Shown: positions 58 through 16,359 of the stretch, piece after piece
How positions within the stretch are numbered: position 1 is the first letter of the stretch
How the letters are laid out: every line of letters begins with the position of its first letter
Origin: an uncultured Bacilli bacterium
GTDB taxonomy: Bacteria; Bacillota_I; Bacilli_A; RF39; UBA660
DNA: 18,914 bases
Direction: 5' to 3'
NCBI GenBank assembly: GCA_947627965.1
Contig: CANQYA010000002.1
Coordinates: 1 to 18,914 of the forward strand
Made by a program: the position numbers and the translations under genes
Notes under the pieces: model-generated
Databases searched by the model: none
Told to the model about the DNA's origin: nothing
Seen by the model: only the letters and a program-made list of their open reading frames with translations

Positions 58-74
58 AATAAATCATTTGTTTT
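47..74 (+). terminator. Weak AT-rich hairpin with T tail before tatD
   Basis: ATGATTTA (47-54) pairs perfectly with TAAATCAT (60-67) across a 5-base loop and is followed by TTGTTTT. The stem overlaps the stop codon of the upstream frame. It has only two G-C pairs in effect, so termination would be weak. It is best read as an attenuating or partial terminator. Confidence 0.4.
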
Positions 75-87
75 GGTGGGAGGGTAT

Positions 88-840: not shown

Positions 841-877
841 TCATGATATGATTAATTCGTAAAGACGAGGCGAAAAT

Positions 878-1453: not shown

Positions 1454-1479
1454 ACTTGTATTTATGCAAGTTTCTTTTT
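1452..1479 (+). terminator. Rho-independent terminator after the 3D-domain gene
   Basis: AAACTTG (1452-1458) pairs perfectly with CAAGTTT (1467-1473) across an 8-base loop, then CTTTTTAT follows. The hairpin begins inside the stop codon. The rsmA ribosome site follows only 8 bases after the T-run, so some readthrough into rsmA is likely. Confidence 0.7.
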
Positions 1480-1495
1480 ATCTATTAGGAGGAAT

Positions 1496-2284: not shown

Positions 2285-2324
2285 AAATATCAAATAATAT
2301 ATTAAATTTATCCATTTTAAATGA

Positions 2325-2352
2325 TTGAAAAATTTTCTAATTATTATATAAT
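2325..2352 (+). promoter_or_regulatory. SigA-type promoter for the OatA-like gene
   Basis: TTGAAA (2325-2330), a 16-base spacer and a perfect TATAAT (2347-2352). The next gene starts at 2377, with GAGGT at 2366-2370 as its ribosome site. This suggests that the acyltransferase gene is transcribed separately from rsmA. Confidence 0.7.
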
Positions 2353-2376
2353 TGAATTATAATATGAGGTAGCAAA

Positions 2377-4629
2377 ATGGATAATAGAAGTAAATATTAC
2401 AAAAATATTAATATGGTAAGAGTAATCGCTTGTATTGGTGTTTTATTATATCACTTAAATATATTGAAAGGTGGATATTTAGCTGTTTCTACTTTCTTTG
2501 TACTAAGTAGCTTTTTATCTTGTCTTTCTCTTTTTAAAAAGGAAAAGGTATCTTTAAAAGATTATTATGTTAATTTAATTAAAAGGACATATTTACCATT
2601 ATTAATTGTCGTATTTGTAACAATTGCTTTTTTAGCGATTTTTCCTGTTGGTAACTGGTTAAATTTAAAACCAGAAACAACTTCTATTTTATTAAATTAT
2701 AATAATTATTGGCAATTAAATGCTAAGCTAGATTACTTTGCTCGTCAAGTTAATTCTCCTTTTATTCATTTATGGTATATTTCAATATTGTTACAATTTG
2801 ACCTAATATTACCTTTTATCTTCATTTTGTTAAGGAAATTAGGTGATAAGTGCAAAAAAATATTCCCTTGTATAATTACTTTACTTTTAGCTGTTATAGC
2901 AACGGTTTATTTTTATTTATCTAGTATTAATCAACCTTTAATGCATACTTATTATGGTACTTTTAGTAGATTATTTTCATTATTATTTGGATTATCTTTA
3001 GGATTTTTTTATAATTATTATGGCTCTATGGTAGCCAAACCATTTACTAAAAAAACAGTTAGTTATATTATTTTTATTGTATATTTATTAGCTTTAATAT
3101 CATTATTTACCATATCTGATATCAATAATACTTATTGGCAAGTAGGTATGATTTTAGTAACGTTAATAAGTTGTCGATTAGTTAGTTATTCTACCGTTTT
3201 AGTTAGTGATAAATTAAATATATTTGATAAAATTATTGAATTTCTAGCTAAGATAAGTTATGGAATATATTTATTTCAATATCCATTAATCTTTATTATG
3301 CAATATTATTTTGAAGATAGACTATATATGATAATTATGGTAATTAGTATAACTATTACTTTATCGATAATTTTGTATTATTGCTTACAAGTAAAAGTTA
3401 AGAATATATTTTTAAGAATAATTAAATATTTGTTATGGGGTATAGGAATTTTAATTATTGGTACAGGAATATACTTTTATATTATAGCTAAAGATCATAC
3501 TGCAGAAATGAAACTATTAGAAGAACAGTTAGCTAATAATTCAGTTATGTTTGAAAAAAGACAAGAAGACTTTTTAGCTCAACAAGCCAAAGAGAAATTG
3601 GATTGGCAAAAAGTATTAGAAGATTTAGAAAAAGACGAAGCAAATTTAAAGAATGTAGTAAATAATTTATCTGTTATTGGTATAGGGGACTCCGTTATGT
3701 TAGGTGCAGTAGGGCAACTTTATCAACAATTCCCTAAGGGTTATTTTGATGCTCAAGTATCACGTACAGCATGGACAGCTAACGATATATTAATTAATTT
3801 AAAAAATAAAAATGTATTAGGAGACCCTATTGTTTTCCATTTAGGAACTAATGGTGATTGTTCAAAAGAGTGTAAGATAGAAATATTAAAAACTTGTGGC
3901 GATAGAGAAGTTTTTTGGATAAATGTTACTAACGATTATGACGTTCATATAAACGATAACTTATTACAATTTGCTAATGAATACAATAATGTCCATATTA
4001 TTGATTGGAATAGTGCCTCTAAAGGACATCAAGAATATTTTTATGCAGACGGTATTCACCTAACCCCTGATGGTGTAATCGCATACTCTAATACTATTTA
4101 TGACGCTATTTATAAAATTTATTTAGAAAAATATAACAAAAAGAAAGAAGAAATAATAAAAAATCATGAAAACATACAGATAAATAAAATAAGCTTTTAT
4201 GGTAATGATTTATTATTAAATGTTTTTGATTATATAAAAGATTATTATAATGACGCTAATGTAGTAATCGATAAGGATTTCTCTTATGAAACTCTCTATT
4301 CAAAAATTAATGGATCAATAAAAGATGGAACTCTTACTAATAAAGTAGCTATATTACTAGATACAAGTATTAATATTGATTATGAAGACTATTTAAAATT
4401 AATAGATTTATGTAAAGATAGAGACTTATATTTATTAATGCTTGATGAAGAAATTGCTGATAAAATAGAAAATTTGAATAATGAAAAGGTACATATCATT
4501 CCTTTTTATAATGAAATAAAAAATAATAAAGATTATTTAATGGTCGATAAAATTCATTTAACTACAAAAGGTAATATGCAGTTAAAGGATAATATATTAA
4601 AAATAATTAATAATGATAAAAATAATTAA
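2377..4629 (+). CDS. OatA-like membrane O-acetyltransferase with two SGNH domains
   Basis: Probably acetylates an extracellular glycan, most likely peptidoglycan MurNAc as OatA does, giving lysozyme resistance. Residues 1-370 are an acyltransferase-3 membrane domain of about ten helices with the conserved histidine H26 and the FFVLSSFL motif. Residues about 375-430 form a charged, coiled-coil-like linker. An SGNH hydrolase-type domain follows (about 431-580), with nucleophile S439 in GIGDSV, oxyanion LGTN (489-492) and D558/H561 in DGIHLT. A second domain (about 598-745) repeats the same layout in degenerate form: GND (609-611) replaces GDS, LDTS (661-664) replaces LGTN, but D724/H727 in DKIHLT persist. 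Typical OatA is about 600 aa with one SGNH domain, so this 750-aa version is longer by one domain. It has its own promoter and lies between rsmA and yabG, where Bacillus has no such gene. The acetyl acceptor is inferred from the family. Confidence 0.88.
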   Translation: MDNRSKYYKNINMVRVIACIGVLLYHLNILKGGYLAVSTFFVLSSFLSCLSLFKKEKVSLKDYYVNLIKRTYLPLLIVVFVTIAFLAIFPVGNWLNLKPETTSILLNYNNYWQLNAKLDYFARQVNSPFIHLWYISILLQFDLILPFIFILLRKLGDKCKKIFPCIITLLLAVIATVYFYLSSINQPLMHTYYGTFSRLFSLLFGLSLGFFYNYYGSMVAKPFTKKTVSYIIFIVYLLALISLFTISDINNTYWQVGMILVTLISCRLVSYSTVLVSDKLNIFDKIIEFLAKISYGIYLFQYPLIFIMQYYFEDRLYMIIMVISITITLSIILYYCLQVKVKNIFLRIIKYLLWGIGILIIGTGIYFYIIAKDHTAEMKLLEEQLANNSVMFEKRQEDFLAQQAKEKLDWQKVLEDLEKDEANLKNVVNNLSVIGIGDSVMLGAVGQLYQQFPKGYFDAQVSRTAWTANDILINLKNKNVLGDPIVFHLGTNGDCSKECKIEILKTCGDREVFWINVTNDYDVHINDNLLQFANEYNNVHIIDWNSASKGHQEYFYADGIHLTPDGVIAYSNTIYDAIYKIYLEKYNKKKEEIIKNHENIQINKISFYGNDLLLNVFDYIKDYYNDANVVIDKDFSYETLYSKINGSIKDGTLTNKVAILLDTSINIDYEDYLKLIDLCKDRDLYLLMLDEEIADKIENLNNEKVHIIPFYNEIKNNKDYLMVDKIHLTTKGNMQLKDNILKIINNDKNN

Positions 4630-5211: not shown

Positions 5212-5225
5212 AAAATAATAAAATA

Positions 5226-5353
5226 GTGCTCGAATTTTCATGAAGTGATGAATGTAATTGTCACTTCTTTTTATTTTTTTAAACTCTAAATTACGTATTC
5301 TTACAAAAAAAATGATGCTTAATTTTAAGCTATTATCCCTTGATTTAATAACC
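5226..5353 (+). repeat. Intergenic repeat element, copy A
   Basis: First of four related elements in the window. In order it holds a hairpin with T-run (5242-5279), the core AAACTCTAAATTACGTATTC (5281-5300), a run of A, the palindromic block GCTTAATTTTAAGC (about 5317-5330) and a right end ATTTAATAACC. The left end lacks the CTTGTAC motif of copies B and C. AATAAAAT occurs on both sides, at 5217-5224 and 5354-5361, as a possible target duplication. It contains no long open frame. Confidence 0.75.
5242..5279 (+). terminator. Terminator carried by repeat copy A, after NUDIX
   Basis: GAAGTGA (5242-5248) pairs perfectly with TCACTTC (5261-5267) over a 12-base loop and is followed by TTTTTATTTTTTT. 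It is well placed to end the NUDIX transcript. The same hairpin is present in weaker form in the other repeat copies, so it belongs to the element. Confidence 0.65.
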
Positions 5354-5382
5354 AATAAAATTATATCGGTATTTTTTTATAT

Positions 5383-5409
5383 ACTAAAAAAAATATAAAA
5401 ACATATAAT
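5383..5409 (+). promoter_or_regulatory. Candidate SigK-type promoter for yabG
   Basis: AC (5383-5384), exactly 17 bases, then CATATAAT (5402-5409). This approximates the mother-cell SigK pattern AC-N17-CATANNNTA, with one mismatch in the final TA. Bacillus yabG is known to be SigK-dependent, which supports the reading. The predicted start of transcription would fall just before the ribosome site at 5415-5419, giving a very short leader. Confidence 0.45.
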
Positions 5410-5426
5410 TACGTGGAGATGATTAT

Positions 5427-6206
5427 ATGTTTTTTAAAGTAGGTGATTTAGTAACAAGAAAGTCACACAATAATGATATAGTCTTTAAAATAGTAGAAGT
5501 TGTCGATAAACTAGCATATTTAAAAGGATTAAATATTAGATTATATGCCGATAGTGATACAGACGATTTAAAATTAGTCGACAGTGCCAAAATTGACGAT
5601 AATGAGGTGTTAGATAGACTTAATAATTCTATTAATTTAGATAGAAACGAGTATTTTTATTTACCAGGTAAAGTTTTACATTTTGATGGTGATGTAGAGT
5701 ATTTAGAACGGTGTATGGACTTTTACAAAAAACTTAAAATAATGGCATATGGTGTTAATTTAAAAGAAGACGAAATTTATTTAGAAATAGATAAATATTT
5801 AGACGAATTACATCCTGATATTGTAGTTATAACAGGTCATGATGTTTATTATAAAAATAAAGGTAATATAAACGATGTTGAAAATTATAAAAATAGTCTT
5901 AATTTTATAAAGGCGATAAAAAAAGCAAGAGAATACGAAAAATCTCATGATAAATTAATAATAATTGCTGGAGCTTGTCAATCAAATTATGAAGAATTAA
6001 TAAAAGCAGGAGCTAATTTTGCTAGTAGTCCTAAAAGAGTTAATCTTCATGCTTTAGATCCAGCTATAGTAGCTTGTTCCGTAGCTTTATCAGATAAAAG
6101 TAAACCTATCGATTTATTAAATATTATCGAAAAAACGAAGTATAAAGAGGAAGGCGTTGGGGGTATTATTACTAATGGAACAATGTATACAGGGTATCCA
6201 AGATGA
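5427..6206 (+). CDS. yabG: Sporulation-specific protease YabG
   Basis: A mother-cell cysteine protease that trims spore coat and cortex-associated proteins late in sporulation. The protein (259 aa; Bacillus about 290) begins with a small barrel-like segment (FKVGDLVTRKSH), then LPGKVLHFDGD, then the catalytic core: ITGHDVY with H138, IIAGACQSNYEELI with C184, and the highly typical ASSPKRVNLHALDP. The C-terminus GVGGIITNGTM is also characteristic. The ATG at 5427 has GGAGA 7 bases upstream. Compared with Bacillus it lacks residues in the region after the N-terminal segment. In Bacillus yabG follows ksgA directly; here the OatA-like gene, the NUDIX gene and repeat copy A intervene. Its stop TGA overlaps the veg start. 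Confidence 0.95.
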   Translation: MFFKVGDLVTRKSHNNDIVFKIVEVVDKLAYLKGLNIRLYADSDTDDLKLVDSAKIDDNEVLDRLNNSINLDRNEYFYLPGKVLHFDGDVEYLERCMDFYKKLKIMAYGVNLKEDEIYLEIDKYLDELHPDIVVITGHDVYYKNKGNINDVENYKNSLNFIKAIKKAREYEKSHDKLIIIAGACQSNYEELIKAGANFASSPKRVNLHALDPAIVACSVALSDKSKPIDLLNIIEKTKYKEEGVGGIITNGTMYTGYPR

Positions 6207-6427
6207 ATATAGAAAAAATAAAAAACAGTTTAGAGCAAAATAAAGGTAAATTATTAAAATTTAAGTTTAATGGTGCTAGAAACCAAGTAGAAGAATTTAA
6301 GGGTACAATAGAAAATACTTATAATTATATATTTTTGGTTAAAATAAAAGACGAAAGTAAACAAATAAGGTCATTTAGTTATACAGATGTGTTAACAGAA
6401 AGTTTAGAAATTTTTACTGATAAATAA
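6203..6427 (+). CDS. veg: Veg protein
   Basis: A small (74 aa) conserved Firmicutes protein with an Sm-like small beta-barrel character; in Bacillus, Veg stimulates biofilm formation through the SinR/SlrR pathway and has been linked to spore germination. The family pattern is clear: IKNSLEQNKGKLLKFKFNGAR, then the hydrophobic TYNYIFLVKI and SFSYTDVLTESLEI. The start codon overlaps the yabG stop in an ATGA arrangement and has no strong ribosome site, so translation is probably coupled to yabG. In Bacillus veg has its own strong promoter. I saw no convincing internal promoter in the end of yabG. No small acid-soluble spore protein gene (sspF) follows, unlike in Bacillus. Confidence 0.9.
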   Translation: MNIEKIKNSLEQNKGKLLKFKFNGARNQVEEFKGTIENTYNYIFLVKIKDESKQIRSFSYTDVLTESLEIFTDK

Positions 6428-6435
6428 GAAAAAAG

Positions 6436-6464
6436 TTGATTTTTTGGGCAATTTATTATATTAT
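6436..6464 (+). promoter_or_regulatory. Promoter for spoVG
   Basis: TTGATT (6436-6441), a 17-base spacer and TATTAT (6459-6464) give a reasonable SigA-type promoter. Bacillus spoVG is a classic SigH gene, but I do not see a clear SigH pattern here. The leader holds a small GGTAA-ATA-TTACC hairpin at 6479-6491 ahead of the ribosome site. Confidence 0.5.
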
Positions 6465-6514
6465 CATATTAGAAGGACGGTAAATATTACCTACTTTAGA
6501 AGGAGGATAGGCAA

Positions 6515-6790
6515 ATGAAAATCACATCTGTAAATGTGCGTAAGGTCGAAAAGGAAAATTCACGTATGAAAGGAATTGCGTCAGTTCTTATTGATGATAG
6601 TTTCGCAGTACATGATATTAGAATTATAGAAGGGGACAATGGTTTGTTTATCGCAATGCCAAGTAGAAAAACTGCAACTGGTGGATACCGTGATATAGCT
6701 CATCCAATTAATCCTGAGGGCCGTGCTATGTTTGAAGAAGCAATATTTGAAGCATATAAAAATGCTGATCAACCTTCAGAAGAAAATTAA
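6515..6790 (+). CDS. spoVG: SpoVG RNA-binding regulator
   Basis: A 91-residue nucleic-acid-binding protein conserved across Firmicutes. It affects septation and cortex formation in Bacillus and acts as a site-specific DNA/RNA-binding global regulator elsewhere. The whole protein matches the family: MKITSVNVRKV, then GIASVLIDDSFAVHDIRII, the GLFIAMPSRKTATGGYRDIAHPI core, and the helix EGRAMFEEAIFEAYK. AGGAGG at 6501-6506 lies 8 bases before the ATG. It stands as a single-gene unit between its own promoter and a strong terminator. Confidence 0.97.
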   Translation: MKITSVNVRKVEKENSRMKGIASVLIDDSFAVHDIRIIEGDNGLFIAMPSRKTATGGYRDIAHPINPEGRAMFEEAIFEAYKNADQPSEEN

Positions 6791-6795
6791 AAAAT

Positions 6796-6822
6796 AAGCA
6801 ACGCTTTGTTGCTTTTTATTTT
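6796..6822 (+). terminator. Rho-independent terminator of spoVG
   Basis: AAGCAAC (6796-6802) pairs perfectly with GTTGCTT (6808-6814) over GCTTT, followed by TTTATTTT. It ends exactly where repeat copy B begins. The last TTATTTT of its tail is repeated at the other end of that element. Confidence 0.85.
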
Positions 6823-6969
6823 GGACTTGTACTTCCCCAAGTGATAAATATAATTGTCAGTTATTTTTATTTTTTTTAAACTCTAAATTATGTATTCTTG
6901 TAAAAATATGTATTTCTCTAAAAAAGTTAATCTTAATTTTAAATTATTCCCCTTTAATGTTTAAGAACC
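6823..6969 (+). repeat. Intergenic repeat element, copy B
   Basis: Starts GGACTTGTACTT, then AAGTGATAAATATAATTGTC with a T-rich tract, the core AAACTCTAAATTATGTATTC (6878-6897), and an 18-base internal tandem duplication (TATGTATTCTTGTAAAAA followed by a diverged copy). It continues with CTTAATTTTAAA and ends GTTTAAGAACC. TTATTTT flanks it at 6816-6822 and 6970-6976. The left end GGACTTGTAC and the inverted right end GGTTCTTAAAC form a weak terminal inverted repeat. It fills the spoVG-yabP gap and contains no gene. Confidence 0.75.
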
Positions 6970-6997
6970 TTATTTTTATAAAATTACTATCTTTTTT

Positions 6998-7025
6998 TCA
7001 TATTTAATTATTAATCACATATAAT
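6998..7025 (+). promoter_or_regulatory. Candidate SigE promoter for yabP-yabQ
   Basis: TCATATT (6998-7004) matches the SigE -35 consensus KMATATT completely. After 13 bases, CATATAAT (7018-7025) matches the -10 CATACAAT with one change. The ribosome site AGGAGG follows at 7031-7036. Mother-cell SigE control is known for yabP and yabQ in Bacillus. Confidence 0.65.
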
Positions 7026-7041
7026 TCACTAGGAGGAAAAT

Positions 7042-7335
7042 ATGGACAAGACAGATAGTGCTATAACAAACTATAACCACGGTATTAGTGTTATAGAAAG
7101 AAAAAATATAATAGTTACAGGCGTAAAAAAAATAGATAATTTTGATAGCGAAGAATTTTTAATGGAAACAACAATGGGATATTTAGTAATTAAAGGTGAA
7201 GAATTAGAACTTATTAAACTTGATACCATGCAAGGTAATGTCTCAATTAAAGGTCTTATTAAAAGCTTTGCTTATGCTGATGAAGGAAAAACTAAAGACA
7301 AACAAAATTCCATATTTAATAGGTTATTCAAATAA
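7042..7335 (+). CDS. yabP: Spore protein YabP
   Basis: A 97-residue mother-cell protein of the YabP/YqfC family, which is needed for normal spore formation though its biochemical role is not well defined. The recognisable stretch runs GISVIERKNIIVTGVKKIDNFDSEEF, MGYLVIKGEELELIKLD and GNVSIKGLIKSFAY, all beta-rich as in the Bacillus protein. The N-terminal arm and the Lys-rich C-terminus are variable. AGGAGG lies 5 bases before the ATG. Its stop overlaps the yabQ start by one base (TAATG), so the two are translated as a unit, as in Bacillus. Confidence 0.92.
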   Translation: MDKTDSAITNYNHGISVIERKNIIVTGVKKIDNFDSEEFLMETTMGYLVIKGEELELIKLDTMQGNVSIKGLIKSFAYADEGKTKDKQNSIFNRLFK

Positions 7336-7631
7336 TGAATTTAGAATTACAGATACAATCACTAATATTTTCTTTTGTTTTTGGTTTGTTTTTTTCACTT
7401 ATGTTTAATTTGTTCTATAAGTATTTATTTAGAGGTAAAGCTTTTTTTAGAATTATTAGTAATTTTATTTTTGTAATGGCAAATACTTTATTATACTTTT
7501 TATGTTTAAAATTAATAAATAATGGTATAATTCATATTTATTTTATTATTATGCTTTTCTTAGGATTTATCTTAGGTAATAAAAAGACTAAGACTATAAG
7601 AAAGTTTAAGCTTGATACTATTTATGATTAA
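7335..7631 (+). CDS. yabQ: Spore cortex biosynthesis membrane protein YabQ
   Basis: A small (98 aa) integral membrane protein required for cortex formation in Bacillus, where it sits in the outer forespore membrane. Three hydrophobic segments are visible at about residues 6-29, 37-59 and 63-82, and a basic tail KKTKTIRKFK follows. The short, simple sequence makes homology weak on its own. The one-base overlap with yabP and the family's length and topology make the call secure. In Bacillus divIC follows; here a terminator does, and divIC is not in the window. Confidence 0.85.
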   Translation: MNLELQIQSLIFSFVFGLFFSLMFNLFYKYLFRGKAFFRIISNFIFVMANTLLYFLCLKLINNGIIHIYFIIMLFLGFILGNKKTKTIRKFKLDTIYD

Positions 7632-7652
7632 TAAAAATATTTGTTGCTAAAT

Positions 7653-7692
7653 AAAGATAAATAATGATTAACAAATCTTGTTTATCTTTTTT
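7653..7692 (+). terminator. Rho-independent terminator of yabP-yabQ
   Basis: AAAGATAAA (7653-7661) pairs perfectly with TTTATCTTT (7681-7689), with a 19-base loop that can form a small inner hairpin. Three more T follow. It separates the sporulation pair from the next operon. Confidence 0.6.
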
Positions 7693-7698
7693 GAGTTA

Positions 7699-7727
7699 AT
7701 GACAATATAATAAATTTGTTGTATAAT
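7699..7727 (+). promoter_or_regulatory. SigA promoter of the DHH-rplI-dnaB operon
   Basis: ATGACA (7699-7704, one change from TTGACA), a 17-base spacer and a perfect TATAAT (7722-7727). This is the best housekeeping promoter in the window. It precedes the long forward operon that runs through rlmH without a clear internal terminator. Confidence 0.75.
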
Positions 7728-7749
7728 TGTATTAGATTTTGGAGGTCCT

Positions 7750-8718
7750 ATGAAGATTGCAAAACAATATAAAAAAATTAATACTGTTATTGAGAAAGCA
7801 TCAAGTGTTTTCGTAGTAGGTCATAAAGATTTAGATTTAGATGCGATAGGTGGTTGTTTAGCCATTTATAATTATATCCATAAATTAGGTAAAAAAGTTT
7901 ATTTAATACTCGATGATAGAAGGATGGACTCTTCTGTTACTAAAGTAATAAAAGAAGTTTCTAATAATGTTAATATAATTAGGAGTACTAGTATTTCAAC
8001 CTTAAAAGATGACGATAGTTTATTATTTATTGTCGATACTAATAAATATTATTTATTGCAAAATCCTAATTTAAGCGATTACTTTTCTAAAAAAATAGTA
8101 TTTGACCATCACGAAGAAGGAGAAGGTTCAATTAATAATGGTGAGATAATTGTCGATACTGATGCCTCAAGTACTTGTGAAATGGTTACCGAGTTTTTAA
8201 AGTTAAATGAATATAAAATAGATAGTTATCTTGCAACTGTTTTACTAGCAGGGATTGTTTTAGATACTAATAATTATGTTTTAAAAACTGATAGTAGTAC
8301 TTTTTATTATTCATATTATTTAACTACTTGTGGAGCTAATCCAAATAAGGTACAATATTTATTAAAACAAGATTTAAAAAAATATATTAAAAGGCAAAAA
8401 ATGATTACAAATGTTAAAATAATTAATCGCATTGCTATTACTAAAGGATTACAAGGAGAGATATATCGAAAAGAAGAATTAGCTAAAACAGCTGATACAT
8501 TACTATTGTTTAATAATATTGATACATCGTTTGTTGTTGCTAAAATTGATAAAAATACCGTAGGTATAAGTGCTAGATCAATGGATAAAATTAATGTTGG
8601 TAAGGTTTTAGAACAATTTGGTGGTGGTGGCGATGCTAACGGAGCGGGGTGTAAAATAGTTAATACGACACCTAATAAAGTTGAAAGAGAGTTAATAAAT
8701 TTAATAAAAAATTATTAA
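7750..8718 (+). CDS. GdpP-type DHH/DHHA1 phosphodiesterase, catalytic part only
   Basis: Probably hydrolyses cyclic di-AMP to pApA, or short oligonucleotides as NrnA does. The DHH domain has [11 protein letters not shown] (H25, D29, D31), [16 protein letters not shown] (D119-H121) and [10 protein letters not shown], so the metal site is complete. The DHHA1 domain ends in the Gly-rich [10 protein letters not shown] (residues 291-300). The fold signatures ([30 protein letters not shown]) match GdpP more closely than NrnA. GdpP itself is about 650 aa, with two membrane helices, a PAS-like heme domain and a degenerate GGDEF domain; at 322 aa all of these are missing. The conserved GGGGH is GGGGD here (D295). 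A position just before rplI and dnaB is the usual one for gdpP. The ribosome site GGAGGT lies at 7741-7746. Confidence 0.88.
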
Positions 8719-8729
8719 GGAGGCGTTTT

Positions 8730-9170
8730 ATGAAAGTAATATTTCTTAAAGATTTAAAAGGAAAAGGTAAAAAGGGAGATATTAAAGAAGTAAAAGATGG
8801 TTATGCCCAAAACTTTTTAATTAAGAATGGTTATGCTACTCAATTATCGTCTTCATCGTTAGGGAAATATAACCGCGAATGTGAAGAAAAGAAAGAATTA
8901 GACGAGAAATTAACGAAAGAAGCCCAAGAGTTAAAAACTAAACTTGAACAAGTAGAACTTGTTTTTACCGTTAAAACAGGTGAAGGTGATAAAGTATTTG
9001 GAAGTATAAGTTCTAAACAGATAAAGGAGCAACTAGATACTTTGGGTTACAAAATAGATAAAAAACAAATTGAAATAGACCATGTTATATCTAGTTTAGG
9101 ATATCATGACGTAAAAATAGTTTTATATAAAGAAATTATTGCTAAAATAAAAGTTAAATTACAAAAATAG
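8730..9170 (+). CDS. rplI: 50S ribosomal protein L9
   Basis: A 146-residue ribosomal protein that binds 23S rRNA at the base of the L1 stalk and projects outward from the large subunit. The N-terminal domain [34 protein letters not shown] is canonical. The long connecting helix (about residues 42-75) is rich in Glu and Lys. The C-terminal domain has [10 protein letters not shown] and [27 protein letters not shown] overlaps the stop of the preceding gene and lies 6 bases from the ATG. It ends in TAG, which is part of the dnaB ribosome site. Confidence 0.98.
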
Positions 9171-9182
9171 GAGGTGATTTTC

Positions 9183-10541
9183 ATGCCTAATAAAACCATA
9201 CCAAACAATTTAGAAGCTGAACAGGCCGTTATTGGTTCAATGTTTTTATCACAATATGCACTTAATAAGGCGTGTGAAACACTAACTAAAGAAGCATTTT
9301 ACAATAATCAAAATGCTATAATTTTTGATACTATTAAGTCAATGGCGGAAGCTAAAAAGCCTATTGATTTAACTACTCTTACGGTTGAGTTAAAAAGTAA
9401 AAATGAGTTAAATAGTGTTGGAGGCGTTGAATATTTATCTGATGTTTTAGAGTCAGTTCCAACGGCTAGTAATATTGATTATTATATAAAATTAGTTGAA
9501 GATTCTGCTATTTTAAGGCGTTTAATAGAAGTATCGACTAACATTACTACTAATGCTTATCAAAGTGAAGGAAATGTTAATGAAACTTTAGATGAAGCTG
9601 AGCGAAAAATATTGAGTGTTGTTAAAAATAGACGTTCGACAGAATTTAGGACTATTAAAGAAGTTTTAGCATCAACACAAAATAATTTGGAGCAATTGGC
9701 AAGTAGTAATGGAGAAATAACGGGACTACCAACTGGATGGATAGATATTGATAATATTACGACGGGTCTCCATGAAAATCAGTTAATAATTATTGCCGCA
9801 AGACCAGCCATGGGTAAAACGGCTTTTGCTCTTTACCTAGCTACTAATGTAGCTATAAATACTAATAAAACGGTGGCTATTTTTAACTTAGAAATGCGTG
9901 CCGAGCAGTTAGCATCGAGAATGATTAGTTCTCTAGGACAAATAGAAGGCAAAAAATTAGCAACTGGTAAACTTTTAAATGATGATTGGAAAAGAGTTAA
10001 TGAAGCTGTCAGTCAACTTTCTAATGTTAAAATGTATATGGATGATACACCTGGTATTACAATTGGTGAAATACGTTCTAAATGCCGTAGATTAGCTAGC
10101 AGTGAAGAAGGATTAGGTTTAGTAGTTATCGACTATTTACAATTAGTTACTTCTTCCATTAATTATGGTGCTAACCGTCAACAAGAAGTATCTGATATTT
10201 CTAGATCTTTAAAAACTATGGCAATGGAATTAAATATCCCTGTAGTAGCTTTAGCTCAGTTATCGCGTGCTGTCGATGCTAGAGAAAATAAAAGACCAAT
10301 TATGAGCGATTTAAGAGAATCTGGTTCTATTGAACAAGATGCTGATATTGTCGCATTTTTATACCGTGATGATTACTATAATAAAGAGTCAGCAATTGAC
10401 CAAAATACGAGCGTTAGTGAATTTATAATTGCAAAACATCGTAACGGTCCAACAGCTACAATAGAATTATTATTCAAAAGAAATACATCGACATTTTTAA
10501 GCTATCAAAAAGAAGGACAAGGTGGTTACAATGAAAATTAA
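9183..10541 (+). CDS. dnaB: Replicative DNA helicase DnaB (DnaC in Bacillus)
   Basis: The hexameric 5'-3' helicase that opens the replication fork. The N-terminal primase-interacting domain starts PNNLEAEQAVIGSMFL and covers about residues 1-150. The RecA-like motor follows, with Walker A RPAMGKT (K212), Walker B VVIDYLQLV (D317), and later motifs LSRAVDAR, SDLRESGSIEQDAD and KHRNGPT. Length (452 aa) is standard, and no intein or insertion is present. The start is the ATG at 9183; an in-frame GTG at 9174 lies inside the ribosome site AGGAGGTGA and is unlikely. Its last 11 bases overlap the next gene, which suggests translational coupling. The rplI-dnaB pairing is common in Firmicutes. Confidence 0.98.
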   Translation: MPNKTIPNNLEAEQAVIGSMFLSQYALNKACETLTKEAFYNNQNAIIFDTIKSMAEAKKPIDLTTLTVELKSKNELNSVGGVEYLSDVLESVPTASNIDYYIKLVEDSAILRRLIEVSTNITTNAYQSEGNVNETLDEAERKILSVVKNRRSTEFRTIKEVLASTQNNLEQLASSNGEITGLPTGWIDIDNITTGLHENQLIIIAARPAMGKTAFALYLATNVAINTNKTVAIFNLEMRAEQLASRMISSLGQIEGKKLATGKLLNDDWKRVNEAVSQLSNVKMYMDDTPGITIGEIRSKCRRLASSEEGLGLVVIDYLQLVTSSINYGANRQQEVSDISRSLKTMAMELNIPVVALAQLSRAVDARENKRPIMSDLRESGSIEQDADIVAFLYRDDYYNKESAIDQNTSVSEFIIAKHRNGPTATIELLFKRNTSTFLSYQKEGQGGYNEN

Positions 10542-11994
10542 AACAGTATTATTTTGTATTTTAGCAGTATTACTTAGTTCATTTGTATTCTTTATAGGTA
10601 AAGATAATACTAACGATCCTCAAGAATTATATCATGTATACTTAGATGGAAAATCTATTGGGCATATCTATTCTAAGAATGAATTAGAAAAATACATCGA
10701 TAATGAAGAAGAAAACATTAAAGAAGAATATAAAGTTGATAAAGTATATATTCCTAACAACTTAGATATTGTTAAAGAAATTACTTATACTGATAAAATA
10801 TATAGTGCTAAAGCAATATACGAAGAAATTAAGGATAAATCTTCTTTTACCATTAAAGGGTATACAATAACTATTAAAGGTGTCGAAGAAATGACCGAAG
10901 ACGGTACTGTTAAAAATGACGATATTATCATTAATGTTTTAGATAAGCAAGTATTTATTGATGCCGTTAATAATACGATAAAAGCCTTTGTCGACGAAGA
11001 AGATTATAATGATTTTATTACTAATCACCAAGATCAAATAGTAGACACAGGAACAATTATTGAAGACGTGTATATCAAAAATGATATTCTTATAAAAGAA
11101 AATAATATCTCGATAAAAGATCAAATATTTTTAAATAGTGGTGATTTAAGTAAATATCTTTTATTTGGTACTTTGGAAGAACAAGAGAAGTACACTGTAA
11201 AACCTGGTGATACAATTGAGTCAGTATCGTTTAATAATCGTTTATCAGTTGGCGAATTTTTAATTGCTAATACTGAATTTAACAGTGCAGATAATTTATT
11301 ATATACAGGACAAGTTGTTACATTAGGTATAATAAAACCCGCTGTTAAAGTTGTCGAAGAAGACTATGTTGTTACGGTTGAAACAACTAATTATACAATA
11401 ACTTATGAAGACGATGATACTTTACCTATCGGTATGGAAATAGTTAAACAAAGAGGCGAAAACGGAATGGATAAAGTAACGCGTCGTATCCAGATGGTTA
11501 ATGGCGATATAAAAGATGTTGAACCCATTTCAAATGAAGAAATAAAACCGACAGTTACCCAAATAGTTATTAGAGGTCAAAAATATGTATCTAGTGTTGG
11601 TAATCCTAAAGTATGGGTATGGCCAACTGCTAATAACTATGTCATTAGTAGTCCTTTCGGATGGCGTTGGGGTAAATTACATGAAGGTCTTGATATTTCA
11701 GGGCCAGGATATGGTTCCCCAATATATGCTGCTAATAATGGTGTAGTAGAAATTGCCGAATGGAACGATATTAATGGATATTATATATATATAAATCATA
11801 ATAACGGATATTACTCTGTCTATGGTCATATGGCATCATTAAATGTTTCACCTGGTCAAATAGTTGAAGCAGGGCAAGTTATCGGTGGTATGGGAGAAAC
11901 AGGATTTGCTATGGGAGTCCATCTTCACTTTAGTATTTTTATAGGTAACCCTAATTATGGAGGAACATCGGTTAATCCGTTACAGTTCTACTAA
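10531..11994 (+). CDS. Secreted LysM-G5-M23 murein endopeptidase
   Basis: A 487-residue cell-envelope enzyme likely to cut peptidoglycan cross-bridges. It has an N-terminal signal or anchor helix (about residues 4-22), a long acidic region of no clear family (25-215), a LysM domain starting YTVKPGDTI (221-265), a G5-like segment (about 272-352), and a LytM/M23 peptidase (about 368-487). The zinc ligands are all present: H384 and D388 in HEGLDIS, and H464/H466 in VHLHFS. It should therefore be active, unlike degenerate M23 proteins such as SpoIIQ in some Bacillus. The start is the ATG at 10531 with AAGGTGG upstream; a GTG at 10522 lies in the ribosome site. The gene overlaps dnaB by 11 bases and walJ by one (TAATG), so it belongs to the replication and wall operon. 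Confidence 0.92.
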   Translation: MKIKTVLFCILAVLLSSFVFFIGKDNTNDPQELYHVYLDGKSIGHIYSKNELEKYIDNEEENIKEEYKVDKVYIPNNLDIVKEITYTDKIYSAKAIYEEIKDKSSFTIKGYTITIKGVEEMTEDGTVKNDDIIINVLDKQVFIDAVNNTIKAFVDEEDYNDFITNHQDQIVDTGTIIEDVYIKNDILIKENNISIKDQIFLNSGDLSKYLLFGTLEEQEKYTVKPGDTIESVSFNNRLSVGEFLIANTEFNSADNLLYTGQVVTLGIIKPAVKVVEEDYVVTVETTNYTITYEDDDTLPIGMEIVKQRGENGMDKVTRRIQMVNGDIKDVEPISNEEIKPTVTQIVIRGQKYVSSVGNPKVWVWPTANNYVISSPFGWRWGKLHEGLDISGPGYGSPIYAANNGVVEIAEWNDINGYYIYINHNNGYYSVYGHMASLNVSPGQIVEAGQVIGGMGETGFAMGVHLHFSIFIGNPNYGGTSVNPLQFY

Positions 11995-12755
11995 TGAAAG
12001 TCAAGATTTTAGCCAGTGGATCTAAAGGTAATTCCACATTAGTAATGAGTGGGGATACGATGATATTGATAGATGTCGGTATAACCGTTCCTCAAATAAA
12101 AAGAATACTAGATAAAGAACAAATAAATATTAATGATATCGATGGTATTTTAATTTCCCATAGCCATTCCGATCACATAAAAGGATTAAGTAATATTGTA
12201 AAAAACTATAATTTAAGTGTTTATGCCAAACCAGAACTAATATATGATTTAGTAAAATATATTCCTATTGAATCGATAATTGTCATTAATGACGACGCCG
12301 TGATTGGTGATATTAATGTAAAATTTATTGAAACTTCGCACGATGTAACATCTTATGGTTTTATAATTAGTGATAGTAAAGCTTCAATGGTTTATATTAC
12401 CGATACAGGATATATTAATAAAAAATATGAAGCTATAACTAAAAATAAAGATATTTATGTAATTGAAACTAATCATGACGAAGAAATGCTTATGAATGGA
12501 CCTTATCCTTATTATTTAAAACAAAGAGTAATTAGCGACAAAGGACATTTGTCTAATCGTTATACAGGTAAATATTTAACTAAAGTAATAGGTGATAATA
12601 CTAAATATATTTTTCTTGCTCACATTAGCGAAAATAATAATACTTACGATTTAGCTTTAGAACAAGTAAAAGAAGAATTAGCTTCTACTAATTTTAGTGA
12701 CGATAAAATTATTGTCACTCATCAAAACGAAGAAACAGATATGGTTGAGGTTTAA
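11994..12755 (+). CDS. walJ: WalJ (YycJ) metallo-beta-lactamase-fold nuclease
   Basis: A 253-residue MBL-fold protein of the YycJ/WalJ family, described as a 5'-3' double-strand DNA exonuclease and linked to the WalRK cell-wall regulon and to coordination of replication with division. It shows LASGSKGNSTLV at the start, the metal motif SHSHSDHIKG (H56, H58, D60, H61), ETSHDV, ITDTGYI and ETNHDEEML further on, and LAHISENNNT near the end, all typical of this family. In Bacillus it follows walRKHI; none of those genes is here, and only the walJ-rlmH end of the cluster remains. It starts within the stop of the peptidase gene. Confidence 0.95.
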   Translation: MKVKILASGSKGNSTLVMSGDTMILIDVGITVPQIKRILDKEQININDIDGILISHSHSDHIKGLSNIVKNYNLSVYAKPELIYDLVKYIPIESIIVINDDAVIGDINVKFIETSHDVTSYGFIISDSKASMVYITDTGYINKKYEAITKNKDIYVIETNHDEEMLMNGPYPYYLKQRVISDKGHLSNRYTGKYLTKVIGDNTKYIFLAHISENNNTYDLALEQVKEELASTNFSDDKIIVTHQNEETDMVEV

Positions 12756-13202
12756 ATGATAAAAGTAATATGTGTTGGTAAATTAAAAGAAAATTATTTA
12801 AAAGAAGCTGTTAATGAATATCTTAAAAGAATAAATAAGTATACAAAAATTGAATTAATAGAATTAAATGATGTAAATAATGGTAATATTTTAAAGAAAG
12901 AAAAAGAAGAAATAATTAATTACATTAATGATAAAGATTTTATTATTACTTTAGAAATTGATGGTATCGAAATGGATTCTATTAGTTTTGCCAAAAAACT
13001 CGATAATATATTTAATTATAATAGTAATATAACTTTTATTATTGGTGGGTCATATGGACTAGATGACGAAATAAAAGCAAAATCTAATTTAAAATTATCC
13101 TTTTCTCAAATGACTTTTCCTCATCAATTATTTAGAGTAATTTTATTAGAGCAAATATATCGTTCTTTTAAAATAAATAATAATGAAGAATATCATAAAT
13201 AA
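12756..13202 (+). CDS. rlmH: 23S rRNA pseudouridine N3-methyltransferase RlmH
   Basis: A homodimeric SPOUT methyltransferase that methylates N3 of a pseudouridine in helix 69 of 23S rRNA, acting on the assembled 70S ribosome. The protein (148 aa; family about 155-160) starts IKVICVGKLKENYLKEAVNEY. It has the SAM-binding trefoil knot FIIGGSYGLDDE followed by SFSQMTFPHQLFRVILLEQIYR and the conserved end YHK. The ATG follows the walJ stop directly, with no spacer; GGTTGAGG in the end of walJ may serve as the ribosome site. The stop is the last gene base before the direct repeat that flanks repeat copy C. Confidence 0.97.
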   Translation: MIKVICVGKLKENYLKEAVNEYLKRINKYTKIELIELNDVNNGNILKKEKEEIINYINDKDFIITLEIDGIEMDSISFAKKLDNIFNYNSNITFIIGGSYGLDDEIKAKSNLKLSFSQMTFPHQLFRVILLEQIYRSFKINNNEEYHK

Positions 13203-13220
13203 GAAAGATAATTATGTTTT
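13202..13220 (+). repeat. Left flanking direct repeat of copy C
   Basis: AGAAAGATAATTATGTTTT lies immediately before the left end of repeat copy C. It matches 13381-13399 in 18 of 19 positions. It looks like a duplicated target site or a recombination scar. Confidence 0.7.
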
Positions 13221-13380
13221 GGGCTTGTACTAAGAGATGCGATAAATATAATGGTCTTGTACTTGAAAGGTGACGAATATAATTGTCGCTTTTTTTAATT
13301 TTCTAAAACTCTAAATTATGTATTCTTACAAAAAAGTACTGCTTAATTTTAAGAATATCTTTTAATATTTAAGAACCACG
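13221..13380 (+). repeat. Intergenic repeat element, copy C
   Basis: Begins GGGCTTGTACTA. The left arm is duplicated in tandem with a 32-base period (CTTGTAC at 13224 and 13256, each followed by a GAATATAAT-like stretch). The second arm forms the hairpin AGGTGAC/GTCGCTT (13268-13291, two G-U pairs) with a T-run. The core AAACTCTAAATTATGTATTC (13306-13325), the block GCTTAATTTTAAG and the right end ATTTAAGAACCACG follow. It contains no open frame of note and fills the rlmH-symporter gap. Confidence 0.8.
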
Positions 13381-13399
13381 AGAAAGACAATTATGTTTT
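13381..13399 (+). repeat. Right flanking direct repeat of copy C
   Basis: AGAAAGACAATTATGTTTT differs from the left copy by one base. It directly follows the right end of the element, so the pair brackets exactly one element. Its end runs into TCTTTTTT, giving a weak hairpin with T-run that may add termination. Confidence 0.7.
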
Positions 13400-13438
13400 T
13401 CTTTTTTCATAATTAAATAAACTTACTAGTAATATTAA

Positions 13439-14713
13439 ATGGTGATTATTATTTTAAATAATATTAATAAATTATTATGGGGTATAGCAACAATAATGTT
13501 ACTAGGAAGTGGTCTTTACTATAGTAAAAAACTTAAATTTATTCAGTTTAATATAAAAGAATTATTTAAAGGTTTTACTAAAAATAAAAAAGATGAAATA
13601 TCGCCTTTTAAGACTTTAATGTTTACTTTAGCAGGAAGAATAGGTGTCGGTTGTTTAGCTGGTATAGCTTTAGCTATATATGTAGGGGGACCAGGAACTA
13701 TATTTTGGTTATGGATATCTACTTTTATAGTTGTTCCTAATGCTTATGTTGAAAGCTTTTTAGGAGTATTATTTCATAAAAAAAAAGATAATATTAATGA
13801 AGGAGGTCCATCTTATTATATTAAAAAAGGGTTAAAAGCTCCTAGATTAGCTAAAATATATGCTTTACTAGTATTAATTACTTATCTTTTTGGTTTTTTA
13901 ACTATTCAAGCTAATACCATAACTAAGTCCTTAATTAAATTTAATTTTCCTGAATTATTTATAGGTATTTTAATTGCTATTATAACAGGATTAATTATTT
14001 TTAAAGGAACTAAAGGTATAATTGATATATCTAGTAAAATGATGCCTATTATAGGTATTATCTATATTTTAATATCTTTTTATATAATAATTATGAATAT
14101 AAATAATATTGGTAATGTTTTTTTAACTATTATAAAAGATGCTTTTAAATTAAAAGCTATTGGTACTTCGTTCCTTACTACTTTTGTTATTGGTTTTCAA
14201 AGAGGTATTTTTTCTAATGAAGCAGGAATAGGTAGTGGAGCAATCGCATCTTCTACTGCTTCAAGTGAAGATGCTAAAGGGCAAGGCATGGTTCAGATAA
14301 TGGGGGTATATTTTACTAGTTTAATTCTTTGTACATTAACAGCAATTATAATTTTATTAAGTAACTACCAAAGTGTAATTTTTAATAATGTTAATGGAAT
14401 AGAATTAACTCAATATGCTTTTACTTATCACCTCGGGTATTTAGGTGAAATTATTTTATTAATAACTATTTTTATCTTTGCTTTTTCCACAATACTTACA
14501 GGTTATTACTATGGTGAAAATAGTCTTAAATTTTTATTTCCTAATATAAGTAAAAAAGCTATTATTTTACTAAAAATTATTTCTTTATTTATTTTAATTT
14601 TAGGAAGTGTTACTAATTCGTTAATTTTATGGGGATTAGTAGATATTTTTATAGCATTAATGGGTATTATTAATGTTTATTCTATTGTTAAGTTAAAAGA
14701 TTATGTACTATAA
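13439..14713 (+). CDS. Sodium:alanine/glycine symporter (AGCS family)
   Basis: A membrane carrier that takes up alanine or glycine with sodium. The family signatures are clear: GVGCLAGIALAIYVGGPGTIFW (about residues 70-91), NEGGPSYYIKKGL, FQRGIFSNEAGIGSGAIASSTAS (about 253-275) and the ILTGYYYGENS stretch. About ten hydrophobic segments are visible across 424 aa, slightly short of the usual 440-480, mainly at the ends. The ATG at 13439 has no ribosome site upstream, whereas GGTGA lies just after it (13441-13445). Either the start is weak or a non-standard codon downstream is used; the first dozen residues are therefore uncertain. Repeat copy C lies just upstream, and no clear promoter is seen. 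Substrate preference between Ala, Gly and Gln cannot be read. Confidence 0.92.
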   Translation: MVIIILNNINKLLWGIATIMLLGSGLYYSKKLKFIQFNIKELFKGFTKNKKDEISPFKTLMFTLAGRIGVGCLAGIALAIYVGGPGTIFWLWISTFIVVPNAYVESFLGVLFHKKKDNINEGGPSYYIKKGLKAPRLAKIYALLVLITYLFGFLTIQANTITKSLIKFNFPELFIGILIAIITGLIIFKGTKGIIDISSKMMPIIGIIYILISFYIIIMNINNIGNVFLTIIKDAFKLKAIGTSFLTTFVIGFQRGIFSNEAGIGSGAIASSTASSEDAKGQGMVQIMGVYFTSLILCTLTAIIILLSNYQSVIFNNVNGIELTQYAFTYHLGYLGEIILLITIFIFAFSTILTGYYYGENSLKFLFPNISKKAIILLKIISLFILILGSVTNSLILWGLVDIFIALMGIINVYSIVKLKDYVL

Positions 14714-14731
14714 TATTGATAGGTGAAGTTT

Positions 14732-15397
14732 ATGATTGGCAATGATTGGGATTTGTTACTTAAAGAGGAATTTAATAAAGAATATTTTAAAAATTTAGAA
14801 AATTTTGTAATTACTGAATATAACCATAAAATTATTTATCCTAAAATAAATGAAGTATATAATGCTTTTCGCTATACTTCTTATCAAGATACTAAAGTAG
14901 TTATTATTGGTCAGGACCCTTATCACGGTGAAAATCAAGCCGAAGGATTGTGCTTTTCAGTAAAAAAAGGCGTTGTAAAACCACCTTCTTTAATTAATAT
15001 TTTTAAAGAATTACATGACGATTTGGGGTATGATATTCCTAAAAATGGTAGTTTAGTTTCTTGGACAAAAGAGGGAGTTCTCTTATTAAATGCTGTTCTT
15101 ACTGTCGAAAAAGATAAACCAACCTCACATCGTGACAAAGGTTGGGAACAATTTACTGATGAAATAATTAAACTTTTAAATCAAAAAAAAGAACCCATAG
15201 TTTTTATTTTATGGGGAAGTTATGCTCGTAGTAAAAAAAAGCTGATTACCAATAAAGAACATTACATTATTGAATCAGCTCATCCATCACCTTTGTCAGC
15301 ATATAATGGTTTTTTTGGAAGTAGACCATTTTCTAAAACCAATAATTTTTTAATTAGTAAAGGATTAAAACCTATTAATTGGGAAATAAAGGATTAA
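14732..15397 (+). CDS. ung: Uracil-DNA glycosylase, family 1
   Basis: Removes uracil from DNA to start base-excision repair. All active-site motifs are present: VVIIGQDPYHGENQAEGLCFSV with catalytic D62, the LLLNAVLTV strand, VFILWGSYA, and the minor-groove loop HPSPLSAYNGFFGSRPFSKTN with H184. Length (221 aa) is standard. I take the ATG at 14732 with AGGTGA at 14721-14726; an in-frame GTG at 14723 lies inside that site. The gene follows the symporter by 18 bases and is probably co-transcribed. It ends convergently with the LemA-family gene, overlapping by 4 bases. In Bacillus ung also lies a few genes from gerQ, as here. Confidence 0.98.
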   Translation: MIGNDWDLLLKEEFNKEYFKNLENFVITEYNHKIIYPKINEVYNAFRYTSYQDTKVVIIGQDPYHGENQAEGLCFSVKKGVVKPPSLINIFKELHDDLGYDIPKNGSLVSWTKEGVLLLNAVLTVEKDKPTSHRDKGWEQFTDEIIKLLNQKKEPIVFILWGSYARSKKKLITNKEHYIIESAHPSPLSAYNGFFGSRPFSKTNNFLISKGLKPINWEIKD

Positions 15398-15927
15398 TTT
15401 TTTTCTTTTAATATCTCAAATTCTTCTTCTTTAGGGTCATTATACATTTCTTTTTTCTCTAAATTCATAAACTTACTAATGATATTATTAGGAAAACGAC
15501 TAATATATTTATTATATTTAACTATTACATCATTATAATAATTTTTAATGGCGGTACATTCAATATCACATTGAAATAAATCGTCTAATAAAGTTTTTTC
15601 TTCATCACTTGGAACGTAACTAGGGCGTTCATCTAAATAATTTTTTAATTCTTGATAAGCTTTATTTAAAATAACATTAAGTTTGAACTTATCTTCGCTT
15701 TCTTCGTCAATATGACATAAAAATTGAAATTCTTTCGCATCTTTTTCTTTATAAATGGCGTATATATCACCTAGTAAAGATAATTTTTTACCTAATAAAG
15801 CATCTAAATCTCTTTCACTAGCTTGAATTTTAATGCTATAAATACTTAATTTCTTTCTTATAATTAATATAATCATTAAAAAAACAGCTATTAAAACAAC
15901 TATACTTGATATAATTTCAAATATCAT
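15394..15927 (-). CDS. LemA-family membrane protein
   Basis: A 177-residue protein with one N-terminal membrane helix (about residues 5-27) and a helical cytosolic or external domain. It resembles LemA in its heptad-rich start IKIQASERDLDALLGKKLSLLGD and in its distinctive end YYNDVIVKYNKYISRFPNNIISKFMNL, where LemA proteins have a YN...FP.N....F.F pattern before an acidic tail. The acidic C-terminus DPKEEEFEILKEKN fits too. The function of LemA proteins is not settled. The middle is diverged, so this is a remote member. I start at the ATG at 15927, which has GAGGTGA just upstream (15932-15938); an upstream in-frame ATG at 16002 adds 25 residues but lies before the promoter. Confidence 0.75.
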   Translation of the reverse strand: MIFEIISSIVVLIAVFLMIILIIRKKLSIYSIKIQASERDLDALLGKKLSLLGDIYAIYKEKDAKEFQFLCHIDEESEDKFKLNVILNKAYQELKNYLDERPSYVPSDEEKTLLDDLFQCDIECTAIKNYYNDVIVKYNKYISRFPNNIISKFMNLEKKEMYNDPKEEEFEILKEKN

Positions 15928-15949
15928 ATCTTCACCTCTATTATTAACC

Positions 15950-15955
15950 ATTATA
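15950..15955 (-). promoter_or_regulatory. Extended -10 promoter of the LemA-family gene
   Basis: On the reverse strand TATAAT (15950-15955) is preceded by TGG, an extended -10 element, 22 bases before the start at 15927. The -35 region (TTACTA, about 15973-15978) is poor. Its position favours the shorter start. Confidence 0.5.
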
Positions 15956-15998
15956 CCATGTATAGTATTAAATAGTAAATTAATAAGTTTAATATTTT

Positions 15999-16037
15999 GC
16001 AACTTTTGATATTTGGGAAAGAGAAAAGTTAAGTTGC
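15999..16037. repeat. Inverted repeat upstream of the LemA-family gene
   Basis: GCAACTT (15999-16005) pairs perfectly with AAGTTGC (16031-16037), and the shifted AACTTTT (16001-16007) pairs with AAAAGTT (16024-16030). Two alternative hairpins are thus possible. No T-run follows on either strand, so it does not look like a terminator. It could be an operator or chance. Confidence 0.4.
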
Positions 16038-16045
16038 AGTTTGAT

Positions 16046-16079
16046 ACGTAAAAATATTGATATATTCATATTAATACGT
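16046..16079. repeat. Imperfect 34-bp dyad in the gerQ-lemA gap
   Basis: The half-sites start ACGTA (16046-16050) and end TACGT (16075-16079). By eye 13 of 17 positions match across the centre at 16062/16063. It lies about 100 bases upstream of the LemA-family promoter. A protein-binding site is possible; nothing identifies the protein. Confidence 0.35.
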
Positions 16080-16121
16080 TGATATAGAATTTAGTCTTAC
16101 AGTAAATTTTAGTTAAATTGG

Positions 16122-16270
16122 TGCATGCCCTTTTTTAGAGCTGATGAATAAATGGTCACTTTTTTAAATCCTTTATAAACTCGCAATTATGTATTCTTGT
16201 AAAAATATGTATTATTGCCAAAAAAGGTAATGCTTAAATTTAAGTTATCGCCCTTTAGTATTTAAAAATC
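16122..16270 (+). repeat. Intergenic repeat element, copy D (most diverged)
   Basis: It lies in the 357-base gap between the LemA-family gene and gerQ, both on the reverse strand, but the element keeps the same orientation as the other copies. It has a TGATGAATAAATGGTCACTT left arm with T-run, the core AAACTCGCAATTATGTATTC (16177-16196), the same 18-base internal duplication as copy B (TATGTATT twice), TGCTTAAATTTAAG, and a right end ATTTAAAAATC. GTTAAATTGG (16112-16121) and GTTAACTTGG (16271-16280) border it. The rest of the gap holds the two dyads listed separately and no gene. Confidence 0.7.
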
Positions 16271-16359
16271 GTTAACTTGGTAAGATTAAATTCTTTTTAT
16301 AAAAATGAAAAAATCGTGACCAAGCTTAGGTATAATGTAAAAAAAAGAAATGGTCCAAT

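Follow-up and report, generated by a model that had tools for sequence, protein, structure and literature searches.

Dispersed elements with two inward-facing hairpins in a spore-forming Bacilli genome: probable ISL3-derived MITEs with putatively co-opted terminators

What are the four similar, gene-free sequences that lie between the genes of a short stretch of DNA from an uncultured Bacilli bacterium, and what do they do there? The stretch, hereafter the window, is 18,914 nucleotides long (contig CANQYA010000002.1 of assembly GCA_947627965.1), and a first-pass annotation had taken the four sequences for a non-autonomous mobile element, a miniature inverted-repeat transposable element (MITE). 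This reading is supported by copies throughout the genome, by empty gaps at three of the four orthologous sites, by a longer insertion sequence (IS) in relatives and by 8-bp target duplications. We think it very probable that the family is a MITE derived from an ISL3-family IS, whose putative terminators were co-opted one by one. Judged by its genes for YabG, SpoVG, YabP, GerQ, SpoIIR and SpoIID, the host is a spore former, which we take to be placed among the RF39-like gut Bacilli.

The four gaps hold related elements, all on the forward strand, with their parts in the order originally described. Copy A (5225..5353; covariance model E 8.9e-18) lies between a NUDIX gene and yabG, copy B (6823..6969; E 2.5e-15) between spoVG and yabP, copy C (13253..13377; E 2.7e-16) between rlmH and an AGCS transporter gene, and copy D (16120..16270; E 2.7e-16) between a LemA-family gene and gerQ, both on the minus strand. 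The elements are where the first-pass annotation had placed them, with some boundaries moved: A starts at 5225 and not 5226, and C and D have the limits just given. The conserved core AAACTCTAAATTATGTATTC (6878..6897 in B) has the identities reported for it, 19/20 in A, 20/20 in B and C, and 18/20 in D. The left end of A reads AGTGCTC, the consensus being GGTGCTT.

We searched the genome of origin (G000), a draft assembly of 892 kb in 124 contigs with a completeness of 68%, in two ways. With copy B as the query and a cut-off of E<=0.001, the whole of G000 gave 18 matches, B itself among them. The search recovered D (E 4e-25), A (6e-18) and C (3e-15), together with 14 further matches on 11 other contigs, some of which are two pieces of one copy; the elements are not confined to the four gaps, a restriction that would have spoken against a repeat family. 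A covariance model built from 12 copies gave 28 matches at E<=1. These are 19 good copies (E<=6.1e-5), all of which were used in the analyses, four left-half remnants (E 2.5e-4 to 0.008; C41, C58 and second sites of C31 and C66), and five weaker matches, namely two antisense overlaps of listed copies, IS ends on C57 and C101, and one weak match. The window copies share one orientation, and elsewhere in G000 both orientations occur. At 104-218 bp, the copies are short, non-coding, numerous and dispersed, as MITEs are, and the family is no chance likeness of AT-rich gaps. A riboswitch or other known RNA family was dropped as a candidate, since a scan of the four window elements against Rfam found nothing even at E<=5. 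The core is not a widespread motif either: an exact scan of the species-genome collection returned only two stretches, at whose core site the element model found nothing (best E 0.055, elsewhere in them), and a scan of viral contigs gave no matches.

The consensus runs from GGTGCTTGTACTTT through hairpin 1 (GAAGTGAT..GTCACTTC), a T-run, the core, an A-run and hairpin 2 (GGTGATACTTAATTTTAAGTATCACC) to CTTTAATGTTTAAGAACC. Entered from either outside, the element presents a hairpin and then a T-run toward the interior, that is, two opposed, inward-facing terminator-like structures. The hairpins mostly have 8-15 pairs, and the element ends are GG..CC. Whole-copy folding of six copies was strong in C30 (z -4.7) and C50 (z -4.3) and not in B (z -0.7), with the rest in between. 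The core is probably passive filler or IS-derived.

The origin of the element can be traced through its ends. When the right end of the MITE is inverted, it reads GGTTCTTAAACATT, which is the terminal repeat of an IS of the ISL3 family that is complete in related genomes, and the longer element with the same kind of ends and a transposase gene, envisaged at the first pass, was found in G298, G239, G178 and G173. Five complete IS copies with paired ends (L151-L155), spanning 1429-1465 bp, come from hosts in the same bacterial family. Four of them encode intact transposases of 430-433 aa (PF01610, E 6.7e-45 to 9.7e-47), and the fifth, L153, the second copy in G239, has a broken frame. The L151 transposase, from G298, was the only one scanned against NCBIfam and passes its ISL3 cut-off. 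Target duplications are perfect (8/8) at L151, L152 and L154 and reach 7/8 at L153; at L155 six bases are readable on one side, and all six match. The MITE itself, with its 8-bp target duplications and its GGYTCTT-type end, has the marks of an ISL3-family derivative. The long, hairpin-bearing ends of the parent IS are unlike those of the ISL3 element of congener G004, which has a GGTTCTTTGTCAA end.

When consensus MITE ends, drawn by eye, are aligned with five IS ends, 34-42 of 52 positions match, and these alignments beat all 1000 shuffles in 10/10 comparisons. The inverted termini that had been called weak are real, being diverged IS terminal repeats of ~50 bp that each enclose a hairpin. 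A hairpin of -10 kcal/mol or stronger is present in all 39 distinct sequences that match the IS end pattern (mean -15.5), at least three of which come from MITE-like copies (L127 and two in L130). Across 20 IS ends, 97.7% of cells pair and nine cells are compensatory, and none of 500 shuffles reaches either value or the covariation score; the number of compensated pairs is reached by 19/500 shuffles and that of pair types by 200/500, kinship among the ends being uncontrolled.

We also looked for the end pattern GGTTCTTAAACATTRAGG, allowing one mismatch and using the same pattern read backwards as the control. It is present in 5/145 family genomes, G000 included (control 0/145), although G115 matches a different palindrome and the end in G109 precedes a TnpB-like frame. 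Followed by GGRGTG, it is present in 17/241 order genomes, again including G000 (control 0). At all 14 IS ends in G060 and G150 the contig ends within <=130 element bases, as expected for a repeated IS. Traces of the IS remain in G000 itself. The weak model matches on C57 and C101, like those in congener G003, share the right end and then continue into other sequence, and on both G000 contigs an inward frame starts with MSINNSILKLLNMKDYNL, resembling ISL3 transposase starts such as that in G004. The C57 remnant (L089 78-281) comprises an IS end, a promoter region and the first 24 transposase codons, followed by stops and unrelated genes; over the first 23 residues it has 74% identity with the L151 transposase (tblastn E 9e-5). 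The IS ends on C101 and C4 run off their contigs.

Several observations on the IS stand apart from this argument. A 60-bp near-perfect palindrome in G182:C2 (L156 288-347) is composed of a pair of IS ends set back to back, the element in a minimal version. Two IS ends on different G003 contigs (L098 on C18 and L099 on C37) share a 42-bp flank, far longer than 8 bp; they perhaps stem from a single insertion, with the flank reflecting a duplication or an assembly effect. In IS flanks (L102-L157), the T-run of a terminator-like host sequence is present at 7 of 53 flanks (three of them of MITE-like copies), against 0-2 of 49-53 at shifted positions, which is no more than suggestive of a target preference for terminator T-tracts. 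A 130-bp IS-end query matched nothing in plasmids and a single 38-base stretch in phages. The one viral contig that matches the end pattern (L122) has no visible ISL3-like frame among the open reading frames listed for 1-4500, and the sole frame scanned had no Pfam match.

Has the element moved? We compared the 8 bases on each side of 18 copies, C31 being excluded because its left end is lost. Six copies have duplications of 7/8 or better: A and C47 with 8/8, and D, C74, C50 and C30 with 7/8. Copy A is flanked by AATAAAAT on both sides (5217..5224 and 5354..5361), and D by GTTAAATT (16112..16119) and GTTAACTT (16271..16278). Swapped flank pairs reach at least 7/8 in 2.0% of 306 cases, none of 20,000 permutations equals the result, and other offsets give 0-1 copies at that level. 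Among nine sister copies (six in G188, two in G239 and one in G121), four have an 8/8 duplication. One of these four, G188:C7, has inserted into an older copy, within the loop of hairpin 1. Copy C in the window looks nested in the same manner, though without a clear duplication (4/8); judging from the sequence, 13221..13252 (plus strand) is probably what is left of an older copy, its left arm, which C interrupts in the loop of hairpin 1. Around C and this remnant lies an 18-bp near-identical direct repeat, GAAAGA(T/C)AATTATGTTTT (13203-13220 and 13382-13399), which is longer than an 8-bp duplication can account for.

Synteny around the window gaps is maintained in congeners, and all congeners compared lack the element at B, C and D: the spoVG-yabP gap is empty in 3/3 (G001, G002 and G004), the rlmH-AGCS gap in 4/4 and the LemA-GerQ gap in 3/3. 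With the element model, no full copy was found in any of four congeners, and four weak matches in G003 are IS ends. The same design is found in other genera, with nearly the same core in G239:C14, and 2/17 genomes of the G188 genus have a match at E<=1e-6. Since the congeners lack full copies and yet the design recurs in other genera, its spread is patchy. From the ends, the duplications and the empty sites, we conclude that the element is a MITE of an ISL3-family IS.

The same evidence bears on two other explanations. One is that a different transposase moves the MITE, for example one of IS200/IS605 type acting on single-strand hairpins, and that the shared end is coincidental. Subterminal hairpins are indeed a trait of IS200/IS605 and REP elements, and in G109:C55 (L105) an IS-type end with a hairpin, AGTTCTTAAACATTAAGGGGTG, stands directly before a broken frame that looks TnpB-like by eye. 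Complete copies with these ends nevertheless encode ISL3 transposases with PF01610 in all four genomes read, and IS200/IS605 elements are not known to make target duplications, in contrast to the 8 bp found here, so that we consider this account very improbable. The duplications also argue against an assignment to REP/RAYT (Y1 TnpA-REP). The other explanation, a fixed family of host regulatory RNAs or terminators that was spread by duplication and is immobile, would suit the maintained hairpins and core and the copies' place beside gene 3' ends. It is contradicted by the target duplications and the empty orthologous gaps, and it also sits badly with ends held in common with an IS, the nested insertion in G188, and the lack of both Rfam matches in the window and full copies in congeners. 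We consider it very improbable as well.

How do the copies relate to the genes around them? With gene calls taken as frames of at least 70 aa, none of the 19 copies overlaps a called gene. The 17 copies with both neighbours called lie between co-directional (11) or convergent (6) genes and never between divergent ones; for eight sister copies the numbers are 2, 6 and 0. The calls are mostly secure, as 22 of 27 neighbouring frames scanned with Pfam, among 28 outside the window, have a domain. In all four half copies the surviving half faces a gene 3' end, and next to the missing half is a gene 5' end. The agreement counts for less than it seems to, because a 3' end lies at the left of most copies and hairpin 1 is preferred by the model.

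The two hairpins of a copy often differ in their relation to genes. A hairpin that faces a gene 3' end was counted as usable, and for each hairpin we folded the best 34-nt stretch on the strand which the gene transcribes. Usable hairpins (n=24) have a mean of -9.5 kcal/mol and those that are not usable (n=12) one of -4.1 (Mann-Whitney one-sided p=3e-5). In copies with one hairpin of each kind, the usable one is the stronger in 11/11. The result holds at other search lengths, and also without the three rearranged copies C31, C13 and C17 (10/10 pairs); it is 10/11 when 30-nt stretches are folded, 11/11 with 40 nt, and 9/11 on the other strand. Copy A illustrates the pattern: hairpin 1 with its T-run (5242..5280, plus strand), 30 nt past the NUDIX stop codon, reaches -10.6 kcal/mol, and hairpin 2 (5312..5336, minus strand), which faces the yabG 5' side, is weak at -4.3. 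Hairpin 1 of C (13267..13292, plus strand; -11.9 kcal/mol) faces the rlmH 3' end. Neither this dependence on neighbour-gene orientation nor the reading of both arms as inward-facing terminator-like hairpins was part of the first-pass annotation.

The structure and the retention pattern suggest a possible terminator function, and we propose the following model. A MITE of 120-150 bp would be moved in trans by an ISL3-family transposase and would carry at both ends hairpin and T-run terminators inherited from the IS, where they may keep transcription that starts outside from reaching the transposase gene. After insertion downstream of a gene, the MITE could provide that gene with an intrinsic terminator in its nearer hairpin, and between convergent genes both hairpins could act. 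Hairpins used by the host would then be kept by selection and unused ones would decay. We lean slightly towards a wider form of this idea, in which the ISL3 transposon and its MITEs are a self-spreading supply of terminators, useful ones are fixed and retained, and some genes have come to rely on transposon ends at their 3' side. The asymmetry would be the same whether selection removed hairpins at gene 5' sides or preserved them at 3' sides, and the two are inseparable here.

The main competitor is an ordinary ISL3-type MITE without host function, which sits behind genes because other insertions do harm and whose hairpins differ by chance decay or age. There is precedent for the positional part: in Streptococcus pneumoniae, convergent gene pairs have more than their share of BOX, RUP, SPRITE and IS elements between them, a bias first read as insertion tolerance (PMC3049150). 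An insertion bias, however, sets position and cannot explain why the hairpin that faces the gene is the stronger of the two in every mixed copy. The effect is seen in both hairpin types separately (hairpin 1 p=0.002, 14 vs 5; hairpin 2 p=0.008, 10 vs 7), and it is absent from the 60 bases that flank the elements (-2.9 vs -3.0). We regard the competitor as rather unlikely, though less so than the other alternatives.

A number of observations tell against an ISL3-derived MITE with co-opted terminators. As to origin, 12 of the 18 copies have no clear duplication (1-6 of 8), eight of them being at <=4/8, and for site A the congeners offer no comparison, their upstream gene being a different one. 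The MITE left end has diverged from the IS end, and covariation in the MITE hairpins is weak, the score being matched by 20/500 shuffles and the compensated pairs by 145/500. Neither PF01610 nor an ISL3 transposase was detected in the 68% complete G000 assembly; since this assembly has no intact IS, mobilisation in trans is something we infer, and an active partner in this species is suggested by the IS ends and the broken remnant. As to retention, the margin is just 0.5-0.6 kcal/mol in two of the 11 mixed copies (D and C13), and the T-runs of the two hairpin classes are nearly alike (6.9 T of 8 in usable and 6.3 in other hairpins), as the competitor would have it. C17 has lost most of its hairpin 2, a usable one, and in one young sister copy an unused hairpin is still intact (-11.6). 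With 14 usable and 3 other hairpins, the sister set does not reproduce the difference (p=0.33), which also favours the competitor, although a set with only three unusable hairpins cannot test retention.

Two decayed usable hairpins fit the retention idea, as terminator-like sequence is already near each gene. Among the 14 usable hairpins 1, that of B (6839..6862, plus strand) is the least stable, at -4.6 kcal/mol; between it and spoVG is a terminator-like hairpin that belongs to spoVG itself (about 6797-6822, by eye). Hairpin 2 of D faces gerQ, near which a separate terminator-like sequence can be seen by eye.

Similar elements have been described in other bacteria. A 187-nt MITE of Microcystis aeruginosa has been attributed to an ISL3-family transposase (PMC11448079). 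Like the present family it is short, lacks a transposase, and has ISL3-type ends, 8-nt direct repeats and many, mainly intergenic copies; it differs in its 9-nt imperfect ends GGCTCTTCG and its unrelated host, and the accessible part of that report describes neither paired inward terminators nor orientation-dependent hairpin retention (PMC11448079). The SPRITE repeats of S. pneumoniae are terminator-like, lie near gene 3' ends and are enriched between convergent genes, and their authors suggest terminator co-option (PMC3049150). These repeats share with ours an interspersed, terminator-like form close to gene 3' ends, and consist of one 18-bp duplex plus a T-rich tract with AAAA/TTTT ends, no target duplication being established in the text available (PMC3049150). 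Our family, unlike SPRITE, has two opposed terminator-like hairpins, a parent IS, target duplications and a retention test, and its two hairpins of mostly 8-15 pairs and GG..CC ends place it outside SPRITE. BOX and RUP are likewise MITE-like, with inverted ends, target duplications and mutual insertion, but their ends are different and their folds pair both ends together rather than forming two separate hairpins (PMC3049150, PMC10969869). With ISL3-family IS in general, the present family has terminal repeats and 8-bp duplications in common, and the transposase gene is found only in the parent IS. In a large IS survey, ISL3 elements were more frequent than expected between co-directional genes (PMC9208149), and a 2024 review considers MITE terminators conceivable (PMC10969869).

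ISL3-derived MITEs and terminator-like repeats were thus already known, and as far as our searches show, the family and the hairpin-retention test are apparently new. A full-text literature search returned no description of this family or of hairpin retention by gene orientation, a result that leaves absence unproven because subscription journals were mostly uncovered. Earlier co-option of repeats as terminators was suggested from position and likeness, as for SPRITE (PMC3049150). Here each copy is its own control, with one usable and often one unusable hairpin, so that the sequences themselves show which hairpins were kept, and the old suggestion becomes testable in any genome with such elements. 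The findings suggest a route by which compact, AT-rich genomes gain terminators. They also account for a repeat that is dense and unannotated in its spore-forming lineage, one represented here by draft genomes only, and name the parent IS of that repeat.

One further repeated sequence was seen. A stretch of ~65 nt (AATCCTATGAA..GAAATACCAAAT..TTTGGGCATGATTTA..AATCATTT) is common to window positions 10-75, upstream of a TatD-like gene, and to L010 1-80, beside MITE copy C31. It has no Rfam match in the window and is possibly another repeat or a leader RNA.

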